Assembly: GCF_003590945.1 (NCBI RefSeq)
Contig: NZ_QYUK01000008.1
Location: forward strand, 558,001 to 622,000
Length of the DNA stretch: 64,000 bases
Source of the DNA: Oleomonas cavernae
GTDB taxonomy: Bacteria > Pseudomonadota > Alphaproteobacteria > Zavarziniales > Zavarziniaceae
Direction of reading: 5' to 3'
Shown here: positions 23,392 to 40,401 of the stretch, piece after piece
How positions within the stretch are numbered: position 1 is the first letter of the stretch
Layout: every line of letters begins with the position of its first letter
Program-made: the position numbers and the translations under genes
The notes under the pieces: generated by a model
Seen by the model: the letters and a program-made list of their open reading frames with translations, nothing else
Told to the model about the DNA's origin: nothing
The model's database searches: none

Positions 23392-24954
23392 TCAGCCCCA
23401 CAACCTCAAAGTGACCAGATGCCGCGCGGGCGTCAGGGGGCGCTTACCGATCACGCGGTAGAGCCCGGAAATCGCCTGCTGGGGATAGTCGAGCTGCACG
23501 CAGTCGTCGCCCAGGCGCAGCCCCAGGCTGACCTCGTCCAGTTCGACCACCACGCGCCAGCTCTCCCGCGCGACGCCGAACAGGGCGCCGAGGCTGTCCG
23601 CCAGTGCCTGGGCGTCGGCGGCGGCAACCAGGGGCGTATCGATTGTCAGCTCGCGGGCATTGGGATAGGCCGCGGCGATCGTGGGCGACGTCCAGACCGC
23701 GGTGCGCCATTCCTCGGCCAGCTCGCGCGCCCGGTCGGTGCCGATCACCGCGCCGGCCAGGTCGGCCTCGCGCATGACCGTGTAATTGCGGGCATAGCGC
23801 ACGGTGATCTTCTTGGCCGGGACCAGGCTCTCGCTGTCATCGACCTCGATCGAGCGGACGGCATACTGGTCGATGGTCAGGGCGGCGGGGCCGGATGGTG
23901 CGGTCAGCCGGCCGACCTGCCACACGCCCGCGGCATCGGGGATCGCCCAGCCAGCGAAGCCTCGCGCCAGGGCGCCGATGGCCTCGGCATAGGTGGTGGC
24001 GTCGGGCAGCCACAAGCCGCAGGCGGCGGGCGCTGAGAGCGTTCCGAAGCTGGCGCCAATATCGCCTGGGGGCGTGCCGCGGCGCTCGAGCAGGCGCTTG
24101 ATCAGGGCGGGTGCGGTGGCGGTGTAGCCGCCAGCCCCGATGGTGCCTTGCATGCCCACGGTCACGGTGCCGCCCAGGCCGCCGCCGTACTTCAGCAGGC
24201 CGCGGGTGCGGTCGCGCAGATAGTGCCCGGAAACCGGCGAAGCTGCGTCGAAGGCGGCGCCGGTCAGGTCGGCATCGCGCACCAGGTTCGCATCGCCGCC
24301 ACGGTCGCGGATCGTCTCGGTGGTGAAGTCGCCGCCGTCGTTGATCTGAAGCACCTGGGCGGGGCCGTTCGCACGCGGCGGCGTGATGTTGGCCTTGGTC
24401 AGGTCGCCCAGGGCCAGCGGCACCGGCTTGCCCTTGAGATCGTCGGACAGGCCCTCGTAACCGGTGGCGCCCACGTTGGTGCCCAGATAGAGGCGGGTCT
24501 GCACGTCCTGCTCGATATCGGCGCGCTTGTCGTGGATCGCCAGGCGCAGGCGCGACGGGCCATCGGTTCGGACCTCCCATTGCGGCCGTTCGACCCGGCC
24601 TTTCAGCAGGCAGGTCCAGGTGGCGAAGGGATCGGGCGTGCCATCCTGCGCCGCCCGGCCGAGATAGATGCCGATGTCCTGCCAGCGCCAGGTGCGATAA
24701 CCCGACAGGCTGCCATCAGCGTTGCTCACCACCAGGTCGCCGGCACCCAAGGCGCCTTCGAGCCGTGACAGGTCGGCATAGACGTCGAGCGAGACGTCGC
24801 CGCCTTCCAGCAGCCGCGGGTCGCATAGCGCGTTCGCGCGGTCGGGATCGGTCGCGGCAAAGGGCCGGATCGGGGTATCGGTCCACCGGAAGGTGTTCGT
24901 CGAAACCCCATCGGTGGCCGTCACCTCGGCGAGCAGGACGCGGGTCGCGCTCAT
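23392..24954 (-). CDS. Phage tail tip/baseplate hub-like protein
   Basis: 520 residues in the position of a hub or tail-tip protein directly after the tape measure. It overlaps the tape-measure stop by 4 bases (ATGA). The C-terminal part (DDCVQLDYPQQAISGLYRVIGKRPLTPARHLVTLRLWG) ends like hub proteins of siphophages with a hexameric ring fold. No enzymatic motif was seen. Confidence 0.6.
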   Translation of the reverse strand: MSATRVLLAEVTATDGVSTNTFRWTDTPIRPFAATDPDRANALCDPRLLEGGDVSLDVYADLSRLEGALGAGDLVVSNADGSLSGYRTWRWQDIGIYLGRAAQDGTPDPFATWTCLLKGRVERPQWEVRTDGPSRLRLAIHDKRADIEQDVQTRLYLGTNVGATGYEGLSDDLKGKPVPLALGDLTKANITPPRANGPAQVLQINDGGDFTTETIRDRGGDANLVRDADLTGAAFDAASPVSGHYLRDRTRGLLKYGGGLGGTVTVGMQGTIGAGGYTATAPALIKRLLERRGTPPGDIGASFGTLSAPAACGLWLPDATTYAEAIGALARGFAGWAIPDAAGVWQVGRLTAPSGPAALTIDQYAVRSIEVDDSESLVPAKKITVRYARNYTVMREADLAGAVIGTDRARELAEEWRTAVWTSPTIAAAYPNARELTIDTPLVAAADAQALADSLGALFGVARESWRVVVELDEVSLGLRLGDDCVQLDYPQQAISGLYRVIGKRPLTPARHLVTLRLWG

Positions 24955-26069
24955 GCCGCACCTCGCCGGGCCGCCAGCTTGGTCACCTGGGCATTGGTGG
25001 TGGCCAGCTCGCGGGTCATCGCATGCACTTCACGGCGCAGCTCGGCGTTGTCCTCGGCCTGGCCGTTCTGACCCGACACCAGGACATCGACCACCTGGCG
25101 CAGCATCTCGGCCATGGCCTGGATGTCCCGGCGCAGGGCATTGAAATCGGCGGCGGCGACCGAAGCCCCGCCGTTGCTGCCCGTCGCGGACGCGTCGGCG
25201 ATCGGCGGCGGGGTGACGAGCGCGATCGGCGTGTTGACCGGCTGGCGGCCGGCGGCGTCGATCGCGCGCCGGGCGTCGCGGCCGACGTCCAGGCGCAGGG
25301 TGCGGATGATGCCGTCAAGGCCGTTGTCGTTGGCGGGGAGCCGGCCGGTGCGGTTGACCATGTCCAGCCAGGGACGGGTTTGCGCGGTGACGGACGATGC
25401 GCGGGTGACCCATTCGCCACCAGCCAGGCCGATGGTGCCGCCGCCGGCATATTGGGCCAGCACGCTGTCGACGTTCCACGTACCGTTGCCGACCTGGCCG
25501 CCGTCGCGCATGGCGGCGACGGGCGGGACGAAGGGATGCGCCGCCCGCTCGATCGCCTCGGCCAATGCCTTGACGCCCGCCTGGGGATCGCTCCAGTCGA
25601 TGCCCTTCATCGCCTTGCGATCGTCGCCGTCCAGCCCACCCATGGTGCCCGACAGATTGGCCAGCCACTGGGCGATGATCCCGTCGTAATCGTTGGGGTC
25701 ATCGACAAGCAACCGGCGCTCGCCACCCGAGGCCGCGTTGATGATCAGGCGCATGCCATAGCCATCCGCGCCGCCGACGCCCTGGGAGCGCATGGTCAGC
25801 TTGAAGCCGGGCAACGTCCCTCCCACCAGCTTCTGCACTTCCTTGCCCATGTCGCTGATCATCTTGCCGACGGTCTGCAGGCGGGGGATGTTGGTCTCGC
25901 TGCCGATATCGGTGTTTTTGACCACCTCGCCGAAGGTGTCGGTCGCACCGTCGTAGCTCTGGGTCACCGCCCGCATATGGTGGCCGTCTTCGACGGCATC
26001 GGCGATGCCGCTGGTCTGCGCCATCACGTTGCCAGCACCCTTCGCCGCGGCATCGCCCTTGGCGCTCAC
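24951..26069 (-). CDS. C-terminal part of the tail tape measure protein (separate frame)
   Basis: This open frame (372 residues from a GTG at 26069) continues the tape measure. Reading the same frame further upstream gives alanine-rich helical sequence (ASLVAAVVAGSEKVAALLAQ) that joins the main tape-measure frame at the C-run 26248-26252 if one base is added. There is no ribosome binding site for an independent start. The C-terminal 100 residues form a coiled coil, as is usual where the tape measure meets the tail tip. Confidence 0.7.
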   Translation of the reverse strand: MSAKGDAAAKGAGNVMAQTSGIADAVEDGHHMRAVTQSYDGATDTFGEVVKNTDIGSETNIPRLQTVGKMISDMGKEVQKLVGGTLPGFKLTMRSQGVGGADGYGMRLIINAASGGERRLLVDDPNDYDGIIAQWLANLSGTMGGLDGDDRKAMKGIDWSDPQAGVKALAEAIERAAHPFVPPVAAMRDGGQVGNGTWNVDSVLAQYAGGGTIGLAGGEWVTRASSVTAQTRPWLDMVNRTGRLPANDNGLDGIIRTLRLDVGRDARRAIDAAGRQPVNTPIALVTPPPIADASATGSNGGASVAAADFNALRRDIQAMAEMLRQVVDVLVSGQNGQAEDNAELRREVHAMTRELATTNAQVTKLAARRGAA

Positions 26070-29000
26070 CTGGGCGTCATAGGAGGCGCGGGCGGCAGCG
26101 ACAGCGGCTTCATGCGCCTTTCGGGCCGCGTCGGCATCCAGGATGGCCTGCTGGTCGGCGTCCAGCTTGAGGTATTGCGCCAGCAGCGCCGCGACCTTCT
26201 CGCTGCCGGCGACGACCGCGGCGACCAGGCTGGCCTGGGCGGCATTGCCCCCGCGATCACCTGTTTGATCTGCTCGCTGACCGCGCCTTGCTCCTGCGCC
26301 AGGCGCGCCAGGATATCGGTGGTGGCATTGCCGGTGATGATCTCGCCGGTCTGATCCTCGATCGCGTTGCCCAGGGCATCGGACAGGTCGAGGCCGTCCA
26401 GCAGCGCCTTGACCTGGGCATCGGTCAGGTCTCGGATCTTCACCACCTGGCCGGTGGTGGCGTTGGTCGCGACGACCTGGTCGCCGAGCAGATCGGCCAA
26501 AGCCTCCTGCACCTCGTGCAGGCGCTCGCGGATGGGCCCGCCCGCCGCCGTCTCGCTCAAGCCGGTCGCGGTGATCGCCCGCAAGGCCTGGATGACCTCG
26601 CGAATGCCGGTCGCGCCGGCCGTGGTGCGACCGCTGATGCCCTGCTCGGCCGCCTGCAATGCGGCAGTGACCGCCGCGGCCTTGGCCGTGCTGGAGAGCC
26701 CGCTATCGGTGATCGCCGACAGGGCCGCCAGCACCTTGCGGGTGGCCAGGCCCTCGGCCGTGTCGTTGCCGGCCAGCAGTTGAGACGAGGCCTGGATCGC
26801 GGCCTTGAGCGGCGCGGCTTCCGAGACGCTGACCAGGCCATCCGCCGTCGCCACTGACAGGGCATCGATCACCCCCTTGAGGGCGCGGGCCTCGTCGGAA
26901 TTGTTGCCGGTGATGCCGATGGTGGCGCGGCCGAGCGCATCGCGCACCGTGTCGGCGCGGGCGACCGCCACCAGGCCGGTGCGGGTGACATCCTGCAGGG
27001 CGGCGATCGTGCCGCGCAGGCTGGTCGCCGCGGCGGTGTTGTTGCCGACCAGGGCGGTCTGCGCCGCGTTCAGGGCGCCGGTGATACCCCGCGCGCGGTT
27101 GACATCGATGCCGCCTGCGATCTCGCTGCGGACGTCACGCACGGCCCGGATGGCATCGCCCAGCTTGCCGGTTGCCGAGGTGGCCTGGCCGACCGAAAGG
27201 GTGTTGGTCCGCTCGATCAGATTGCCGATGACATCGAGCGCCGAGAGCTGCTCGCGCAGCAGGGCCGCATTCGGGCCTTCGGGCGCGGTCAGGTTCTCGC
27301 GAATGGCTTCCAGGACGCGGGTCTGGGCATCGAGCAGATCGGCCTGAGTGTCAGCCGACCCGGCCAGGCCCCCGGCCGAAACGCCCGCCTGTTGAAGCAG
27401 CTTCGAAGCCCAGTCGAAATCGCTTTGATAGGCGGGCGCGGAGGCGTTGTAGGCGCGGCTGTCTTCCAGGAAGGCCTGGACGGCGGCGGGCAGGTTCTTC
27501 ATGGCGTCCAGGTCGCCGCCCTTGGCCTTGGTGGCGGTCTGCGTCAGTTCCTGGCGCCGCTGGGCCAGGATCTCGGCCGGCGACAGGGTCGAGAGGTCGC
27601 CCGTCTTCAGGGCGGCAATCGCGTCGTTGATCGAGCCCAGGGCATCGCGATAGGCGGCCGCCGATCGGCGCGCCGCGGTGGCGGCATCCATGGACGTCGA
27701 GATCTGCTCGTCGATCGCCCGGCTCACCAAGCCCAGCGACAGGCCCAGCTGCGCGCCCAGGTTCTCGCTGGCATTCACGATCTCGGCGATGCCGGCGAGC
27801 TGGGCGTCGGTGGCCTGGCGCACGGCGGCGGCGACTTCCAGCGCGGCCAGCCGGGCGACCTTGGACATATCGAGGCCGAGCGTCGCGGCTTCCTTCTGCC
27901 GGATCTCCTGGGCTTTGAGCAGATCGGTGACCTGATCGAAGATCCCGAAGCCGGCGCCCTGGTTGATCGCGCGGTCGAGGCCGTCGTCGAAGCTGTCGCG
28001 GATCTTCTGCATCGACGCGGCATAGCCCGCGGCGACCTCGGTCTGGGTCAGCCCCAGGTCGGACGCCCGCTCGCGCAGCACCTTGAAGGTCTCGTCGAGC
28101 GCCTTCATGGCGGCCTCGGTCTGAGTGATGTCCGTCTTGGCGTCCTTCAGCCCGACCAGAACGAGGGCATACTCGCGCACCGCCGCGGTGGCGCCGCCCA
28201 GGTCGAGTTCCTCGGCATCGTCCTGGAACTTCTTCAGCGCATCGATCTGCGCCGTGAGGCTGTCCCTGATCCCCTTGCGCATGTCGTCTTCAATGCCGAC
28301 GCCGCCGCGCAGGGCGTCCACGGCATCCTTGAAGTCGGCGGCGAAGACGAGCAGGCGCAGCGCTTCGTCGATGTCACCCGAGAAGTCCACCTTGCTCAGG
28401 GCCTTGGTGACCTCTTCGGGCAGCTTGTCGGCATAGAGTTCGCTGATCTTGATGATGGTGCGGCCGATGATCGACTTGACCCCATCGGTGCTGGTCTCGC
28501 CCCGGATCTGGCCGAGATCCTTGCCGTCCTGCCAGAGCTGTGAATAGGAGCCCTCGCGGCTGCCGATCTCGAACTTGAGCTGCAGGTCGCTGAAGTCGAC
28601 GTATTTGCCGAAGGCGGCAAGGGAGGCATCGCGCACCGCGGCACCGGCACCCGTGGCGGCATCGAGATTGGCCTGGCTGAACTTCTTGCCGTTCTGATGG
28701 AACGTCCGCGGGTCTTTGTAGAAATCGTCATAGACCACGTTGGCCGTCTTGTTGCTGGGCTTGTCGTTGTCCATGCCGCCGATCAGGCCGGCGATGGCGC
28801 CGATGATGGCGCCGATCGCCGTGCCGATCACCGGGACAACCGAGCCGATCGCCGCACCGGCCGCGGCGCCGCCCACGGCACCGCCGCCCATCGACACCAG
28901 CTTGTTGCCGGGCGCAATGCCGCTGAGCAGCTGGCCGATGCCGTAACCCGCCGCCAGGATGCCGATGCCGGGGATGATCGTGCCGCCCAGCGTGACACCG

Positions 29001-32000
29001 CCCGCCGCGGCACCGCCGCTGGCCGAGAGGCCGCCGGCAACGGCCCCGCTGGACGCCGCCCCGCCGCCGATGGCAAAGCCGCCCGCACCCGAGGTCAGGC
29101 CGCCGGCCAGGGCGCCGCCAGCGGCAGCGCCGCCGCCGACCGCAAAGCCCGAGCCCACAGAGGCCACGCCCGTCCCGAAGAGCGGCGTGCTCATGAGGCC
29201 GCCGACGCCCGTGATGCCCAGGCTGTCGGTGATGCCGGCGAAGATCGACGAACCGGCGCCGCCGCTCAGGCTGTCGGCCAGGCCGAGGACTTGCTGGCCG
29301 GCGCCCAGATAGTCGAAGCCGCCACCGGCACCCCCGTTTATGCTGGGCATGGGCACGCCGCCGCCCGTGGTCAGCCCCAGCTGCGAGGCGGTGCCCTGGC
29401 CGAGGAAGGCATTCGCCACGCCGCCGACGATCGGCTGGAACACCAGCAGTGCTGCGATCTGGGCGGCGACGTCCTTCATGATGTCCAGCAGCCGGTCGCC
29501 GAAATCCTCGAAGCTGTCGACATTGCCGTCGAGGACGTCGCGGAAGGTATCGCCCAGGCTCTCCTGGATGGCTTCGCCGGCCTTGCGCACGGCGCCGGTC
29601 AGGGCGTCCGAGATCTCGGTGCGCTGGCGCAGGGCTGCGTTGGTGCGCAGGGTCTCGTCGTAGAGCCGCAATTCCTCGCCGGCCTGGACGCGCCAGTTGT
29701 CGCCGTACTGGCGCTGCAGCTCCAGTTCCTTCTGGCGCAGGGCGACCAGATAGGCCCGGCGCTCGGCGGTCTCGCCGGCCAGGCTGAGTTCATATTGGGC
29801 GAGGCCCAGGCTCTCCCGCTGGGCCTGAAGGGCGGATGCGGCACTGAAGCCGGCGGCGGCATCGTTCGCCTCCCCGTAGGCATCCCGCAACAGCTGGATG
29901 ATGCGGGTCAGTTCCTTCTTCGCCGCCCCTTCGGCGTTGGCCTCGGCCACCAGCAGCGGGCGCAAGGCCTGCTCGAGTTGAAGCTGCTTCTGGGCCTCGG
30001 CCTGCGTCATGGTGCCGGCAGCGACGGCCTCGGTGACCCCGCGGTGCGCGGCGGCCTGGTCGCGCAGGTCGGTGACCTGGCGAGCCCCCTCCACGGCGGT
30101 CTGCGCGACCTGCTGGGCCAACAGTTCGCGGGCGCGGGCCTCGGCATCCACGCCACTGGTCAACGATGCCTGGACGGCCTCGCGCTGGGCCGCGGCGGCC
30201 TCGCCGGCCGAGGCGCTGGTCAGGTAGGCATCGGCGACGGCGTAGAGCGAGGTGACGTTGGCAGACAGCGCCGCGCTCTCGCGGCCGATCGCGACGGTGC
30301 CTTCAGCCAAGGCACGCGCGCGGGCCTGCTCTACCCGGGCGGCGGCCTCGCCGGCCGTGACCTCTTCGCCGGACAGGGAAATGCGCTCTCGCTCGCCGGC
30401 CAGCCGCGCCCGCTCGGCGGGCGACCTGGCGCTCAAGAGTTGGATATCGATCTGGGAGAGCTGCTGGGCTTTCTCGGCAGCCGGAATGTAGGTCGTAATT
30501 GCGCGACTGGTCGCGTCGATCGCGGCCGCGATCTGCGCTTGCTCGGCAGCGGTTTGACCAGGCGCCCCGACGCCAGTCTTGAGCGCCGTAAGCTGATCCC
30601 CCAGGCGCTGTTGGCGCAACATGTCGGAGGTCGCGGGCGATCGTCCAGCCACACCCAAAGCGGCATCACCTGCGGCTCTGGCGGCGCCAAGTGCAGCTTG
30701 CTCGGCCGCGGCGGCGTCGCGAACCTCTACCCTGCTTTCCAGGTCCCTAAGCTCGCGCTCCATCTCCACGATGCGGGCATCCGCCGACGCGCTACCTGGC
30801 ACTGAGCCGGGCCTGTTGCGCCGATCGGCTTCAATCAGGCGGCGCACCTCAGGCGGTGTGTCGGCCGAGATTTCCGGGGCACCCTCCCTGAGCCTGGCGA
30901 TAGCCGTGCGCAGTTCTGCAATCCGGTCATCATCGGATGGCCCGGATATAGCCCTGTCCACCGCGCTACCGATTGCGCCCATGGCATTGGATGCCATGCG
31001 TGCCACAAAATCCCATGCCCGACCGAGAGCTGTAGTCGCTTCGGTGGCATCCACCAACCGCGGCCGAAGCGCGTCGAGCAGCACCTTCTGGGCTTCGGTC
31101 CTGTTGTTCTGGTCGACCAGGCGCTGGACGTAGCGGGCAGTGGCGCCATCGACCAGGCCGAGGGTCTGCGACAGGGTCTGGGCACCGCGCGCCGGGTCGG
31201 CGAACAGCTCGGCCAACTGGCCGGTGGCGGTCTCGACGTCGGCGCCGATCGTCGCCGCGAAATCCTTTGCAATGCCGATGAGGCCCTCGAACTGACCCAC
31301 CCCGATCTTGCCGGTGTGCAGGAGGGCGACCTCGATGTCGCGAGCGGCCGCGACCGAGATCTCCCCGGCATCCGATGCTTCGTCGGCGATACGCCGCAGC
31401 TGCTCGACGGTGGCGCCACTGGCCCGCCCGACGCCGGCGGCGGCAACCTCGACCTGCTTGGTCGAGGCGATGTAGCTGTAGAAGGCCAGGCCGGCGGTAA
31501 TGACGCTGCCGGCAAGCGCACCGAAGCCCACGCGGGCAACTGTCACCTGCTCGCCCAAAGCCTTCAGGGTATTGCGGGCACCGCCAAAGATGGGCGTGAT
31601 CTGACTTCCCTGCTGCAGCAGGACGAGCAGCGGGTTCATGCCGCCGGCCAGCGACACCGCGACGTCGTTGAGCTGGAAGGAGAGTTGGCCCAGTTCACGG
31701 CCGGTCAGCTTGCCGGTGGCCGCGTAACCCGACATGGCGCGATTGTGGCGGTTGAGCGCCTGCGTCGCCGCCTCGAATGCGACGCCGCTCTTGGTGACGG
31801 CTGCCGCGGCCTCGGCTTCACTGATTGCCCCGATCTTCAGTGCGCGCGAAATCTCGTCCAGGGCGGCCTTGTGCTGTGCCTCGGCGGCATAGAGGGGCAC
31901 GTATTTCGTCCGCAGGCCATCGACCTCGGAAGCATGCTGCGAGACGCCGGCGGTCAGGTTCCGCCAGGACGCCCGGATGTTCTCGATCTCCGTTGCCTGT

Positions 32001-32365
32001 AGGGCCACCGCGGCCGAGATACCGCTCCAGGACGAGGCGACCGCATTGCCCGTCACCGTCGCCTGCTGCGCCAGCTCGCGGATCTCGGTTCGCGCCGCGG
32101 CGGTCTCGGCGGCCAGGCGATCCGCCGCGGCAGCACCCGCATCAACCGCTGCCGCCTCTTTGGTAACGGCCGTCGACACGATATCGAGCGTGCCGGCAAG
32201 ATCGCTCGCTGCCGTCTCGCCCTGCTTCAGGCCCGCGTCAAGCTTTGCCCCGGCTGCCGTGGCCGCGGCGCCCAGGATGGTCAGAGCCTCCTTGGAGCCA
32301 ACCAGTTCGGCCTTGAGTTCACTGCCATCGGCGGTGATGCGGAGACGCAGGGACAGATCAGCCAC
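26066..32365 (-). CDS. Tail tape measure protein (main part)
   Basis: 2099 residues as printed. The N-terminus begins MADLSLRLRITADGSELK, the usual start of prophage tape measure proteins, followed by long alanine/glutamate-rich helices, a glycine-rich hydrophobic stretch around residues 1050-1200 and degenerate repeats containing SLSVGQA- and GNNSDEARAL-like units near residues 1750-1950. After about residue 2040 the frame turns into an Arg/Pro-rich shadow; the true C-terminus lies in the adjacent frame. The full protein would be about 2470 residues, predicting a tail of roughly 350 nm at 1.5 angstrom per residue. Confidence 0.9.
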   Translation of the reverse strand: MADLSLRLRITADGSELKAELVGSKEALTILGAAATAAGAKLDAGLKQGETAASDLAGTLDIVSTAVTKEAAAVDAGAAAADRLAAETAAARTEIRELAQQATVTGNAVASSWSGISAAVALQATEIENIRASWRNLTAGVSQHASEVDGLRTKYVPLYAAEAQHKAALDEISRALKIGAISEAEAAAAVTKSGVAFEAATQALNRHNRAMSGYAATGKLTGRELGQLSFQLNDVAVSLAGGMNPLLVLLQQGSQITPIFGGARNTLKALGEQVTVARVGFGALAGSVITAGLAFYSYIASTKQVEVAAAGVGRASGATVEQLRRIADEASDAGEISVAAARDIEVALLHTGKIGVGQFEGLIGIAKDFAATIGADVETATGQLAELFADPARGAQTLSQTLGLVDGATARYVQRLVDQNNRTEAQKVLLDALRPRLVDATEATTALGRAWDFVARMASNAMGAIGSAVDRAISGPSDDDRIAELRTAIARLREGAPEISADTPPEVRRLIEADRRNRPGSVPGSASADARIVEMERELRDLESRVEVRDAAAAEQAALGAARAAGDAALGVAGRSPATSDMLRQQRLGDQLTALKTGVGAPGQTAAEQAQIAAAIDATSRAITTYIPAAEKAQQLSQIDIQLLSARSPAERARLAGERERISLSGEEVTAGEAAARVEQARARALAEGTVAIGRESAALSANVTSLYAVADAYLTSASAGEAAAAQREAVQASLTSGVDAEARARELLAQQVAQTAVEGARQVTDLRDQAAAHRGVTEAVAAGTMTQAEAQKQLQLEQALRPLLVAEANAEGAAKKELTRIIQLLRDAYGEANDAAAGFSAASALQAQRESLGLAQYELSLAGETAERRAYLVALRQKELELQRQYGDNWRVQAGEELRLYDETLRTNAALRQRTEISDALTGAVRKAGEAIQESLGDTFRDVLDGNVDSFEDFGDRLLDIMKDVAAQIAALLVFQPIVGGVANAFLGQGTASQLGLTTGGGVPMPSINGGAGGGFDYLGAGQQVLGLADSLSGGAGSSIFAGITDSLGITGVGGLMSTPLFGTGVASVGSGFAVGGGAAAGGALAGGLTSGAGGFAIGGGAASSGAVAGGLSASGGAAAGGVTLGGTIIPGIGILAAGYGIGQLLSGIAPGNKLVSMGGGAVGGAAAGAAIGSVVPVIGTAIGAIIGAIAGLIGGMDNDKPSNKTANVVYDDFYKDPRTFHQNGKKFSQANLDAATGAGAAVRDASLAAFGKYVDFSDLQLKFEIGSREGSYSQLWQDGKDLGQIRGETSTDGVKSIIGRTIIKISELYADKLPEEVTKALSKVDFSGDIDEALRLLVFAADFKDAVDALRGGVGIEDDMRKGIRDSLTAQIDALKKFQDDAEELDLGGATAAVREYALVLVGLKDAKTDITQTEAAMKALDETFKVLRERASDLGLTQTEVAAGYAASMQKIRDSFDDGLDRAINQGAGFGIFDQVTDLLKAQEIRQKEAATLGLDMSKVARLAALEVAAAVRQATDAQLAGIAEIVNASENLGAQLGLSLGLVSRAIDEQISTSMDAATAARRSAAAYRDALGSINDAIAALKTGDLSTLSPAEILAQRRQELTQTATKAKGGDLDAMKNLPAAVQAFLEDSRAYNASAPAYQSDFDWASKLLQQAGVSAGGLAGSADTQADLLDAQTRVLEAIRENLTAPEGPNAALLREQLSALDVIGNLIERTNTLSVGQATSATGKLGDAIRAVRDVRSEIAGGIDVNRARGITGALNAAQTALVGNNTAAATSLRGTIAALQDVTRTGLVAVARADTVRDALGRATIGITGNNSDEARALKGVIDALSVATADGLVSVSEAAPLKAAIQASSQLLAGNDTAEGLATRKVLAALSAITDSGLSSTAKAAAVTAALQAAEQGISGRTTAGATGIREVIQALRAITATGLSETAAGGPIRERLHEVQEALADLLGDQVVATNATTGQVVKIRDLTDAQVKALLDGLDLSDALGNAIEDQTGEIITGNATTDILARLAQEQGAVSEQIKQVIAGAMPPRPAWSPRSSPAARRSRRCWRNTSSWTPTSRPSWMPTRPERRMKPLSLPPAPPMTPR

Positions 32366-33100
32366 GGCGCGACCTCGCCTGCTGGCGCTCGCGTTCCTCG
32401 CGGCCGCGGAACACGGCCAGTGCCTCGATCTCCATGGCTTGCAGGTCGGCCATCACATTCCCGTCCAGCGTCAACCCCTGGGCATTGGCCACCACCGCGA
32501 CGGCGGCGTAGTTGAGGCCGACGATCGAGCCCCCCATGCCGGCGTGCAGCCATTGGGTGGCCACCGACTGAAAGAACGCGAAGGCGGCCAGGTTCTCAGG
32601 CCACAGCTCGATCTCGGTCTCGGTCGCGAAGCGGGCGCGAAGCTGGTCCGCGCCCGGCCCGACGATGCCGAAGCCCGCGAGTTCTTCCTCAAGAGCCTCG
32701 CGGGCTTTGGTGGTACTGCCGCCGCCCGTTGCCCAGGTCCGGGCGGCGTCGCTCAGTTTTTTCGCTTGGCCATGCCGTTCGACAGGCTGGGGAAGTAGGC
32801 CTGGGCGACAGCGATGGCGACCGGGGGATTGCGCAGGAGCGCGTCCCGGATCTCGTCGCTGAAGGAGATCGGCTGGTTGGTGTCTTCGTCGATCAGGCCT
32901 TCCCAGCCGATCCACGCCTCGCGCAGCACTTCCTTGTCGGGATCCTCGGTGATCGAACTGCGCAGCTCGCGCTGGCGGTCGTGATCGATGACCTTGAAGC
33001 GGCCCTTGAACGACTCGGTGTCGAAGCCGCCCCGCTCGTTGGGCTGCTTCACGGTGACGGTCGCGGTGAAGGTGCGCTCTTTGCCGATCGAGATCTTCAT
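32358..33100 (-). CDS. Tail assembly chaperone GT fusion (made by -1 frameshift)
   Basis: The upstream chaperone frame (33100 to 32753) and a second open frame ending at 32358 overlap at the heptamer A_AAA_AAC (32762-32756). A -1 slip there continues as LSDAARTWATGGG for 132 codons, giving about 247 residues. The second frame has no start codon of its own downstream of the first gene's stop before deep inside its DUF1799-like domain (LWPENLAAFAFFQSVATQW). This is the gpG/gpGT arrangement of long-tailed phages, always just before the tape measure gene. Confidence 0.85.
32753..33100 (-). CDS. Tail assembly chaperone (G-like product)
   Basis: 115 residues ending SLSNGMAKRKN, with the stop TGA immediately after the slippery heptamer. 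It is located between the tail tube gene and the tape measure, as expected for a tail chaperone that coats the tape measure before tube polymerisation. Confidence 0.85.
   Translation of the reverse strand: MKISIGKERTFTATVTVKQPNERGGFDTESFKGRFKVIDHDRQRELRSSITEDPDKEVLREAWIGWEGLIDEDTNQPISFSDEIRDALLRNPPVAIAVAQAYFPSLSNGMAKRKN
32756..32762 (-). promoter_or_regulatory. Programmed -1 ribosomal frameshift site (A AAA AAC)
   Basis: On the minus strand the zero frame reads CGA AAA AAC TGA. The heptamer fits X XXY YYZ exactly, in the correct frame, with the zero-frame stop directly following, which increases the pause. Slipping gives AAA AAA CTG and continues into the GT extension. Confidence 0.85.
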
Positions 33101-33148: not shown

Positions 33149-34078
33149 TTACTGGATCGTGATGGTGAAATCGTCCGTCGCCGAGTTGACGCAGAGGTTC
33201 AGCCCGGCCTGGATCATCAGGAGCTTCTGATCCTCCTGGTACTGCGGGTCGACCAGCTGGGTCTTGCTGCCGGTGACGATGACCTTCTTGCCCGCGGCCG
33301 AGCCGTGGGTGATCGACAGGACGTCACGGGTCTCGGTTTTGATGGTGGCGATCCAGTCCTTGGTCAGGATGTCCGGGGCTTCGAACAGGATCGTGCCGAC
33401 CGCCTTGCGGTCGACATAGTTGATGCCCTCGTAGTTAGTGTTGTTGCGGTAGACGTTCTCGACCCCGAAATCGACCTCGAACGACTTCACGCCCAGCGTC
33501 GTGCCGTGCAGGGTGATCACGGTGTTGGCGAAGGAGACTTCCTCGGGATCCTTGAACGCGGTCAGGGTCGCCGAGGGCATGGCCGCATCGGCGATGCCGC
33601 CATAGAGGCCCATGAACGAGAACTGGAAGCGCGGGATGGCCAGGGCGGCGCCGACCAGCTTCACGGTACCGCGGCAGCCCAGGGCCTTGTGGCGCAGCCG
33701 GCCGATGTAGAAGTAGATGCTGGCCGAGGTCTCGCCGCTGTCCACTGGCTTGTAGTCGACGCGGGTGGTGGCGACGACGGTTTCCGCCATGGCGCAGGCG
33801 ATCAGGGCCGGGCCATAGCCAGGCGCGGTGCCCAGCGGGGTGCCGGCGCCGGCCGCTTCGACCTCGAAGCTGATCATCATGTGCTCGCCGACGATCAGGG
33901 CGCCCTCGTTACCGAGGCGGCCACCATCCAGGTCGCGTTCCACCTTGTCGGCCTTCAGCGGCTCGATGCTGCCGTTGTAGGTCATGACCGCGTTGCTGCC
34001 GCCGACCGGCACGCTGTCGACCCCGTAGGTCGCCTCGGCCTTCAGCAGGACGATCTTCTGTTCCCATTTGTAGGCCAT
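33149..34078 (-). CDS. Major tail tube protein
   Basis: 309 residues, beta-rich, with the N-terminal pattern MAYKWEQKIVLLKAEATYG and the central TRVDYKPVDSGETSASIYFYI common to tail tube proteins of B3-like phages and related siphophages. The position between the tail terminator and tail chaperone genes supports the assignment. The C-terminal ending TDDFTITIQ resembles an Ig-free tube end. Confidence 0.75.
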   Translation of the reverse strand: MAYKWEQKIVLLKAEATYGVDSVPVGGSNAVMTYNGSIEPLKADKVERDLDGGRLGNEGALIVGEHMMISFEVEAAGAGTPLGTAPGYGPALIACAMAETVVATTRVDYKPVDSGETSASIYFYIGRLRHKALGCRGTVKLVGAALAIPRFQFSFMGLYGGIADAAMPSATLTAFKDPEEVSFANTVITLHGTTLGVKSFEVDFGVENVYRNNTNYEGINYVDRKAVGTILFEAPDILTKDWIATIKTETRDVLSITHGSAAGKKVIVTGSKTQLVDPQYQEDQKLLMIQAGLNLCVNSATDDFTITIQ

Positions 34079-39153: not shown

Positions 39154-40401
39154 CTATTTGCTGGCATAGAGCAAAGCGCCACGGCGGAACTGCTCCACAT
39201 AGGTTTCGGTGGTGTCGAAGCCGGTGATGCCGAACCAGCCCCGCGGCGACCACTCGAAGCGCACGAACAGGGTCTTGCCGTTGGGCAGGAGCACCCGCTT
39301 CAAGTAGGACCGGCGCAGGGCGACCCCGCTGGCCACCGCAACCCATTCAGCCCAGATCTCGTCGGGATCCTTGATCGCATCGGCCAGCAGCAGCGTGTAG
39401 AGCCCGCGGTCGCGCTTCATCGACTTGAAGCCATAGACGGCACCGTTCGGGCCGCGCTGTTCAAATAGCGACTTGTCGATGCCGATGATCCCGCCCGATG
39501 GGTCGCGCCACTCCACCGGTGTCGCGAGGTCGGCGCCGAATTCCTTGAGGAAGCTCTCGACATACTCCTGGTCCGGCCGGCCGGCCGGCAGCACGCGCGA
39601 CGCCGGCACGGCCTGGGCTGGACGCAGCAGCGGCAGCTTGGCCGGTGCCGGCGGCGGCGTCAGCGGCGACAGCGGCGCCTGCAGCTCGACGGGGACCACA
39701 CCCTTCAGCGAGGCCTCGCCGACGTTGTATTCCCAGCCGCGGTCGATGCCGGGATAGCGGGTTTCGGGCTGGCCGGTGCGCGGATCCACCGTCTCGATCG
39801 GCCGCTCGTAGGGCGCCTTGTCCGGCCCGCTCTTGCCCAGCGCCGTCAGCTGCCGCTTGCTCAGGGCCACGACGTCGCAGTTGCAGCCCCAGCCGTTGGG
39901 GGGAAAGTGGGTCTTCCACCAGGGATCGTCGGCCGCCAGGCACTGGCCGTTCCAGGCGACGTGGTGCGGCCGGGGATAGCGGCTGTCGTTGTGCCTGTAC
40001 TGCCAATAGGGCCGGTACTTCAGCACATCCGGGTCGGTCATCTGCGCGTAGCGGCCGGCCATGTAGGACGTGCGCAGGTTGGTCTTGTAGATCAGCCTGG
40101 CGCGCCAGGCGCGGCGCTCGGCATCGGTCTTGCCGCGGGCATAGAACTGCCAGCCGGTGCGGGCGACGATGTTGTCGAAGTCCTTCTGGAACTCCTGCAG
40201 GCTGACGCCCTTGGTCACCGCCTTGTCCACAGCGGCGCGAAAATCGGCCAGCATGTCGGCCTGGACGACGCCGGCCACCGAGAAGGCGCGGGCGTGCGCC
40301 TGGTGGCGCAGGTCATCCCATTTCCGGGTGGGCAGATCGACCTTGCGCTGGAAGAAGTCGATCGCCTCCTGGAAGGGCAGCGAGACCCCTTCAATTGCCA
40401 T
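39154..40401 (-). CDS. Minor head protein (Mu F-like) with a C-terminal PBECR-type nuclease-like domain
   Basis: 415 residues. The N-terminal 225 or so match the Mu gpF minor head (SPP1 gp7-like) fold, including the cysteine/tryptophan-rich NGWGCNCDVV. After a proline-rich linker (SPLTPPPAPAKLPLLRP) comes a domain of about 140 residues ending WFGITGFDTTETYVEQFRRGALLY, which resembles the PBECR (phage barnase-EndoU-colicin-RelE) nuclease fold attached to MuF proteins. Such toxin domains may act on the next host or on the producing cell. Activity and key residues cannot be verified by eye. Confidence 0.75.
   Translation of the reverse strand: MAIEGVSLPFQEAIDFFQRKVDLPTRKWDDLRHQAHARAFSVAGVVQADMLADFRAAVDKAVTKGVSLQEFQKDFDNIVARTGWQFYARGKTDAERRAWRARLIYKTNLRTSYMAGRYAQMTDPDVLKYRPYWQYRHNDSRYPRPHHVAWNGQCLAADDPWWKTHFPPNGWGCNCDVVALSKRQLTALGKSGPDKAPYERPIETVDPRTGQPETRYPGIDRGWEYNVGEASLKGVVPVELQAPLSPLTPPPAPAKLPLLRPAQAVPASRVLPAGRPDQEYVESFLKEFGADLATPVEWRDPSGGIIGIDKSLFEQRGPNGAVYGFKSMKRDRGLYTLLLADAIKDPDEIWAEWVAVASGVALRRSYLKRVLLPNGKTLFVRFEWSPRGWFGITGFDTTETYVEQFRRGALLYASK

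Follow-up and report, generated by a model that had tools for sequence, protein, structure and literature searches.

In an Oleomonas cavernae prophage, the operon encoding the tail chaperone very probably uses programmed −1 ribosomal frameshifting to produce a 247-aa G-T fusion protein. The region lies on the minus strand of the 64,000-nt stretch of contig NZ_QYUK01000008.1 that was analysed, referred to below as the window. Its features are as follows.

33149-34078, minus strand: tail tube protein gene, just upstream of G (PF18906 Phage_tube_2, E 7.9e-13)
33100-32753, minus strand: G, tail assembly chaperone, an ORF of 115 aa ending ...GMAKRKN, with its stop codon TGA at 32755-32753
32762-32756, minus strand: slippery heptamer A_AAA_AAC, in the G frame and touching the stop
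32756-32358, minus strand: −1 frame (T part), 132 aa, with its stop codon TGA at 32360-32358; 247-aa fusion with G
32740-32748, minus strand: 5' arm of a predicted hairpin, 7 nt past the heptamer (9 bp, −21.4 kcal/mol)
32720-32728, minus strand: 3' arm of the predicted hairpin, pairing with 32748-32740 across a loop of 11
32415-32627, minus strand: DUF1799 domain (PF08809; E 1.6e-12, 47.9 bits against a cut-off of 26)
26066-32365, minus strand: tape measure gene, just downstream, overlapping the T stop (PF06791 TMP_2, E 3.8e-44)

The tail chaperone locus

The last codons of G read ATG GCC AAG CGA AAA AAC TGA. The heptamer thus stands in the register (CG)A AAA AAC TGA, and the original prediction of a slip site in the correct frame directly before the stop is confirmed. 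The −1 frame is open from well within G down to the TGA at 32360-32358 and reads CTG AGC GAC GCC GCC CGG ACC at the junction. There is no ATG, GTG or TTG near the junction in this frame of the window, the nearest being GTG 32915, inside G and 153 nt 5' of the heptamer, and GTG 32564, inside the DUF1799 core. The further claim that the second frame has no start of its own is correct for these three codons; a CTG at 32756 in the −1 frame overlaps both the slip site and the G stop.

The presence of the heptamer is unremarkable. AAAAAAC was counted twice in the window against 1.10 expected from shuffling, which is not significant alone. Its significance lies in its position: only one of the 358 window ORFs of at least 60 aa has an X_XXY_YYZ heptamer adjacent to its stop.

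G and T are located between the tail tube and tape measure genes, the gene order of G/GT. The genes upstream encode the tail tube protein, a tail terminator, a Mu gp36-like protein, the capsid protein and a Mu F-like protein, suggesting that the prophage joins a head of Mu type to a long-tail module. At its C-terminus, the Mu F-like head protein (39154-40401, minus strand) bears a domain resembling PBECR2 nucleases (PF18810, E 1.3e-28). The tape measure ORF, 2099 aa in length, seems to switch frame near a GGGGG run at 26200-26300 on the minus strand, past which coherent coil-like sequence goes on in another frame into the ORF at 24951-26069. This break may be due to a sequencing error, a mutation or a second recoding site; the contigs of relatives end within the tape measure gene and a search there for its 3' part found nothing. 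One contig, L002, is identical over its 6396 bases and seems to be the same prophage as the window.

The G protein of the window matched the PHROG profile phrog_569 (E 2.4e-15) and had no Pfam match at E up to 1, PF08748 Phage_TAC_4 included. Phage_TAC_4 was matched by 8 of the 11 members of the G alignment at E up to 1, and G of Escherichia phage HK639 gave 97.4 bits with this family and E 6.3e-41 with phrog_569. The predicted model of G had a mean pLDDT of 78.8. When solved chains were re-aligned to the model, the highest row was 3klu, YqbN (Z 4.8, rmsd 4.6, 86 aligned), which we take to be a tail chaperone, followed by a weak match to the HK97 tail chaperone 2ob9 (Z 4.4, rmsd 3.9, 84 aligned); these Z values are low by the tool's own note and the third row, an exosome subunit at Z 3.5, is where unrelated rows start. 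A Foldseek search of the G model against the PDB gave nothing significant, the best match being an unrelated protein at E 0.71.

The DUF1799 match of the T part is the sole one at E ≤0.001 in the genome. The T part also matched phrog_680 (E 1.2e-19), as did all 11 members of the T alignment. The T model (pLDDT 82.1) had two nameless viral fold matches below E 0.001, followed at E 0.003-0.008 by viral proteins of 133, 210 and 277 aa named 'tape measure chaperones'. Re-alignment of the T model against the PDB reached a best Z of only 3.6, searches of the G and T sequences against solved structures found nothing credible and none of G, T and the tube protein matched NCBIfam. The analysis as a whole lends support to DUF1799 being a T-type domain.

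Conservation and selection at DUF1799 loci

PF08809 searches were positive for 4 of the 7 genomes in the order, for 30 of 398 in a phylum sample and for 18 of 385 and 10 of 369 in two class samples; the samples overlap. The 74 loci read comprised the window, genome matches, viral contigs and three phages; seven DUF1799 genome matches gave no locus and fall outside this number, as do L001, L002 and L058-L062, which are copies of the window, L006 or L009. A non-redundant set with T identity under 80% contained 61 loci. The heptamer of a locus was defined as the last one in frame with A or T as its second triplet and lying at most 150 nt before the G stop.

An in-frame heptamer with DUF1799 in the −1 relation was found in 73 of the 74 loci. 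The sole exception, L074, has its DUF1799 match near the contig start, with no G-like ORF upstream in the −1 relation. The heptamers of the 61 loci were AAAAAAC (46), GGGAAAC (13), AAAAAAT (1) and AAAAAAG (1). They were adjacent to the stop in 49 loci (TGA 38, TAA 7, TAG 4), 3 nt from it in 5 and 9-105 nt from it in 7; the 12 non-adjacent cases are weaker because of the search rule, and L041 and L078 are doubtful. Among 656 other ORFs of the same loci, serving as controls, 3 had a stop-adjacent X_XXY_YYZ and none of these was AAAAAAC or GGGAAAC.

RNA polymerase slippage on the A run could also give access to the extra frame, and there is an A6 run in the window and A7 or A8 in some relatives. 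However, the 13 GGGAAAC loci contain no long homopolymer, and A6 falls short of the lengths above 7 given for transcriptional slippage (PMC3711429). Transcriptional slippage was rejected on the strength of the GGGAAAC loci and we regard it as highly improbable.

The codon after the heptamer in the 61 loci was CTG in 37, CTA in 12, CTC in 8 and another in 4. This bears on whether the DUF1799 frame might instead be translated separately, through reinitiation after termination, from CTG 32756, an in-frame codon that overlaps the TGA in the manner of ATGA. Exactly this CTG is annotated as the start of T in the RC1 phage record, the junction codon is TTG in L044, an ATG lies 3 nt further on in L050, and 15 of the 61 loci have some ATG, GTG or TTG between −60 and +30 relative to the slip site. 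Against this, the heptamer is kept whether or not CTG follows it, 11 of the 12 CTA loci having an adjacent TAA or TAG, and in 11 of the 61 there is no ATG, GTG or TTG anywhere from the upstream T-frame stop to the DUF1799 core. Reinitiation would also leave the codon fixation and the hairpin described below unexplained. The TAA and TAG loci lacking CTG led to its rejection, and for the window it is very unlikely. Separate initiation of T is possible in some loci and, as the start codons stand, cannot be a general rule.

The slip-site codons are fixed at the synonymous level. Elsewhere in the two frames of these 61 loci, G and T, lysine is AAA 233 times and AAG 364 times, yet all 48 A-type slip sites use AAA (log10 P −22). 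All 13 G-type sites use GGA for glycine, although only 82 of 1000 glycines elsewhere are GGA (log10 P −13.9), the rarest glycine codon in these frames. The slip site is both conserved and under selection on its synonymous codons. Arginine at the second T residue was encoded by AGR (AGA or AGG) in 10 of 13 cases against a background of 71 in 1093 (P 3e-10, all 61 loci). Since AGR at this position keeps the G-frame stop, and given both this rare codon and the stop adjacency in 49 of the 61 loci, the adjacent stop itself seems to be selected.

Mismatches between the window and L006 fell on the three G-frame phases as 30/34/46 within G and as 41/57/37 past the heptamer, so variability peaks at the third codon position of G up to the heptamer and at that of the −1 frame beyond it. 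Two further comparisons, with L009 and L043, show a switch in the same direction. This pattern of substitutions indicates constraint on the protein encoded in the −1 frame. By chance alone, AAAAAAC should turn up about once in 64 kb and could in principle have fallen next to two independently expressed or decayed genes, but the heptamer conservation, the control ORFs and the constraint on the −1 frame contradict such a coincidence, which is barely conceivable.

The downstream hairpin and a mechanism for frameshifting

The hairpin predicted 7 nt past the heptamer had a mean pair probability of 0.63-1.00 in 16 contexts. The window hairpin alone is not significant (z −1.62, sliding rank 0.17), and the fold of 66 nt of the window preferred another structure (z −0.80). 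Four distinct sequences, those of the window and of close relatives, had 97.2% of cells paired and two compensatory pairs; this was equalled in 27 of 500 shuffles and is modest. The signal is found across the family. Over the 61 loci, the 45 nt starting at +5 were more stable than synonymous shuffles with a Stouffer z of −10.1 (−10.0 on repeat), a value that takes related loci as independent. At six offsets further on, the Stouffer z was only −0.2 to −2.9, so that the signal peaks at +5. The z of individual loci was below −1 in 38 and above +1 in 4 of the 61, with HK639 at −1.32. A perfect stem of −8 kcal/mol or better was present in 48 of the 61 loci, the commonest spacer being 7 (14 of 48). 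Inspection by eye of the 21 nt before the window heptamer revealed no Shine-Dalgarno-like stimulator.

Gene order, protein families, heptamer conservation, codon bias, phase switch and hairpin agree with one another, and the G/GT fusion put forward in the original prediction is well supported. Most ribosomes would terminate at the TGA to give G. In a small fraction, tRNA-Lys and tRNA-Asn would be positioned on AAA AAC while the ribosome is slowed by the hairpin, and both tRNAs would re-pair one base back on AAA AAA, so that translation would continue in the DUF1799 frame to give the 247-aa G-T fusion. Slippage probably occurs, most likely at an efficiency of a few per cent. By analogy with lambda gpG and gpGT, G would coat the tape measure protein and the T part would recruit tail tube subunits.

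The junction peptide needs a correction. Tandem slippage keeps the Asn of AAC and, under the standard model, the main junction would therefore be KRKN-LSDAART. The sequence KRKKLSDAART, proposed earlier as the peptide to look for, would arise only if slippage took place in the P site before AAC is decoded.

A_AA.A_AA.C and G_GG.A_AA.C are described as low-efficiency sites in E. coli, and −1 slippage has been proven at A_AAA_AAC for one cluster of insertion sequences (PMC4066793). A weak slip site suits a low fusion ratio. We tentatively suggest, as an idea that may well prove wrong, that DUF1799-type chaperones share a stop-coupled cassette made up of a weak X_XXA_AAC site, a selected stop as the next codon and a hairpin mostly 6-8 nt further on, with the G:GT ratio set by the release factor against slippage. 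Slippage would then take place partly with the stop codon in the A site, as a −1 counterpart of the +1 site in prfB. Ending G without a tail would be a simpler reason for the adjacent stop. When a stop is introduced behind the slip site of HIV-1, it can be read before slippage takes place, and in Rous sarcoma virus and barley yellow dwarf virus an adjacent stop occurs naturally (PMC4373837). Given these viral precedents, competition between release factor and slippage is possible at the present site.

Relation to known systems and to annotation

The slip site of phage lambda is G_GGA_AAG. The present locus resembles lambda G/GT in having a −1 slip at the end of G, a fusion of chaperone and T domain and a low-level product, here predicted, and differs from it in the A_AAA_AAC heptamer with a directly adjacent stop and in the DUF1799 nature of the T part. 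The lambda frameshift is programmed (Levin 1993; Xu 2004, as cited in PMC5009743). It is crucial in lambda that gpG and gpGT stand at 30:1, and the partner bound by T is the major tail subunit (PMC5009743). Frameshifts in tail chaperones are classical, and by sequence the locus represents the lambda G/GT mechanism in a TAC_4-related/DUF1799 group.

Other systems can be compared. In Acinetobacter phage Loki, AAAAAAC touches the stop of the chaperone gene and a G-T fusion of gp12 and gp13 was predicted; the available text gives this as a prediction only, without a family survey or a downstream hairpin (PMC5313236). The HK97-like tail chaperone cluster has a prokaryotic frameshift measured at 6-7% in E. 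coli (PMC3711429). HK639 shares the PHROG family of G, an unannotated DUF1799-like T frame and AAAAAAC TGA, and differs in its gammaproteobacterial host. T TTT TTC has been proposed as the slip site of Mu-like phages of P. aeruginosa (PMC4378225). For VarioGold, the chaperone and DUF1799 are given as separate genes and the main text, as far as available, is without 'frameshift' words (PMC9658991).

Thirteen of the 60 phage records matching the T part were read, 3 of them within the 74 loci and 10 kept apart and unpooled. Eight of these 10 had AAAAAAC or GGGAAAC, stop-adjacent in 7 and three nt off in 1. None of the 13 records joins the two frames, which bears out the original prediction that standard annotation would miss the DUF1799 gene or give it a wrong start. 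The HK639 record has no T gene, that of RC1 starts T at the junction CTG as noted above, that of Ymer starts it at a TTG lying 9 nt upstream of the codon next after its own G_GGT_TTG, and that of NewHawk has two small ORFs in place of T. The remaining 9 set the start of T 21-168 nt downstream. Mis-annotation of recoded genes as such has already been published (PMC3711429). A DNA-level search of G-GT in phage records gave no match at E 1e-5.

Two of the records have other junctions. Klebsiella phage NewHawk has a DUF1799 frame, but the final 120 nt of its G contain no in-frame X_XXY_YYZ. In Pectobacterium phage Ymer, which has neither AAAAAAC nor GGGAAAC, a G_GGT_TTG ends 9 nt short of the G stop. 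Both junctions show CAA AAG by eye, and an A_AAG tetramer is a possible slip site in these phages. In Acidovorax phage Aval, the DUF1799-frame gene (L083, 1489-1800) is named 'FAD-dependent oxidoreductase', an apparent misannotation.

The analysis bears out and refines a gene model of a kind that annotation gets wrong. To the known G/GT system it adds a conserved adjacent stop and a hairpin, as parts of what appears to be a family-wide recoding cassette. The DUF1799 loci would also lend themselves well to the question of whether bacterial −1 slippage is in competition with termination.
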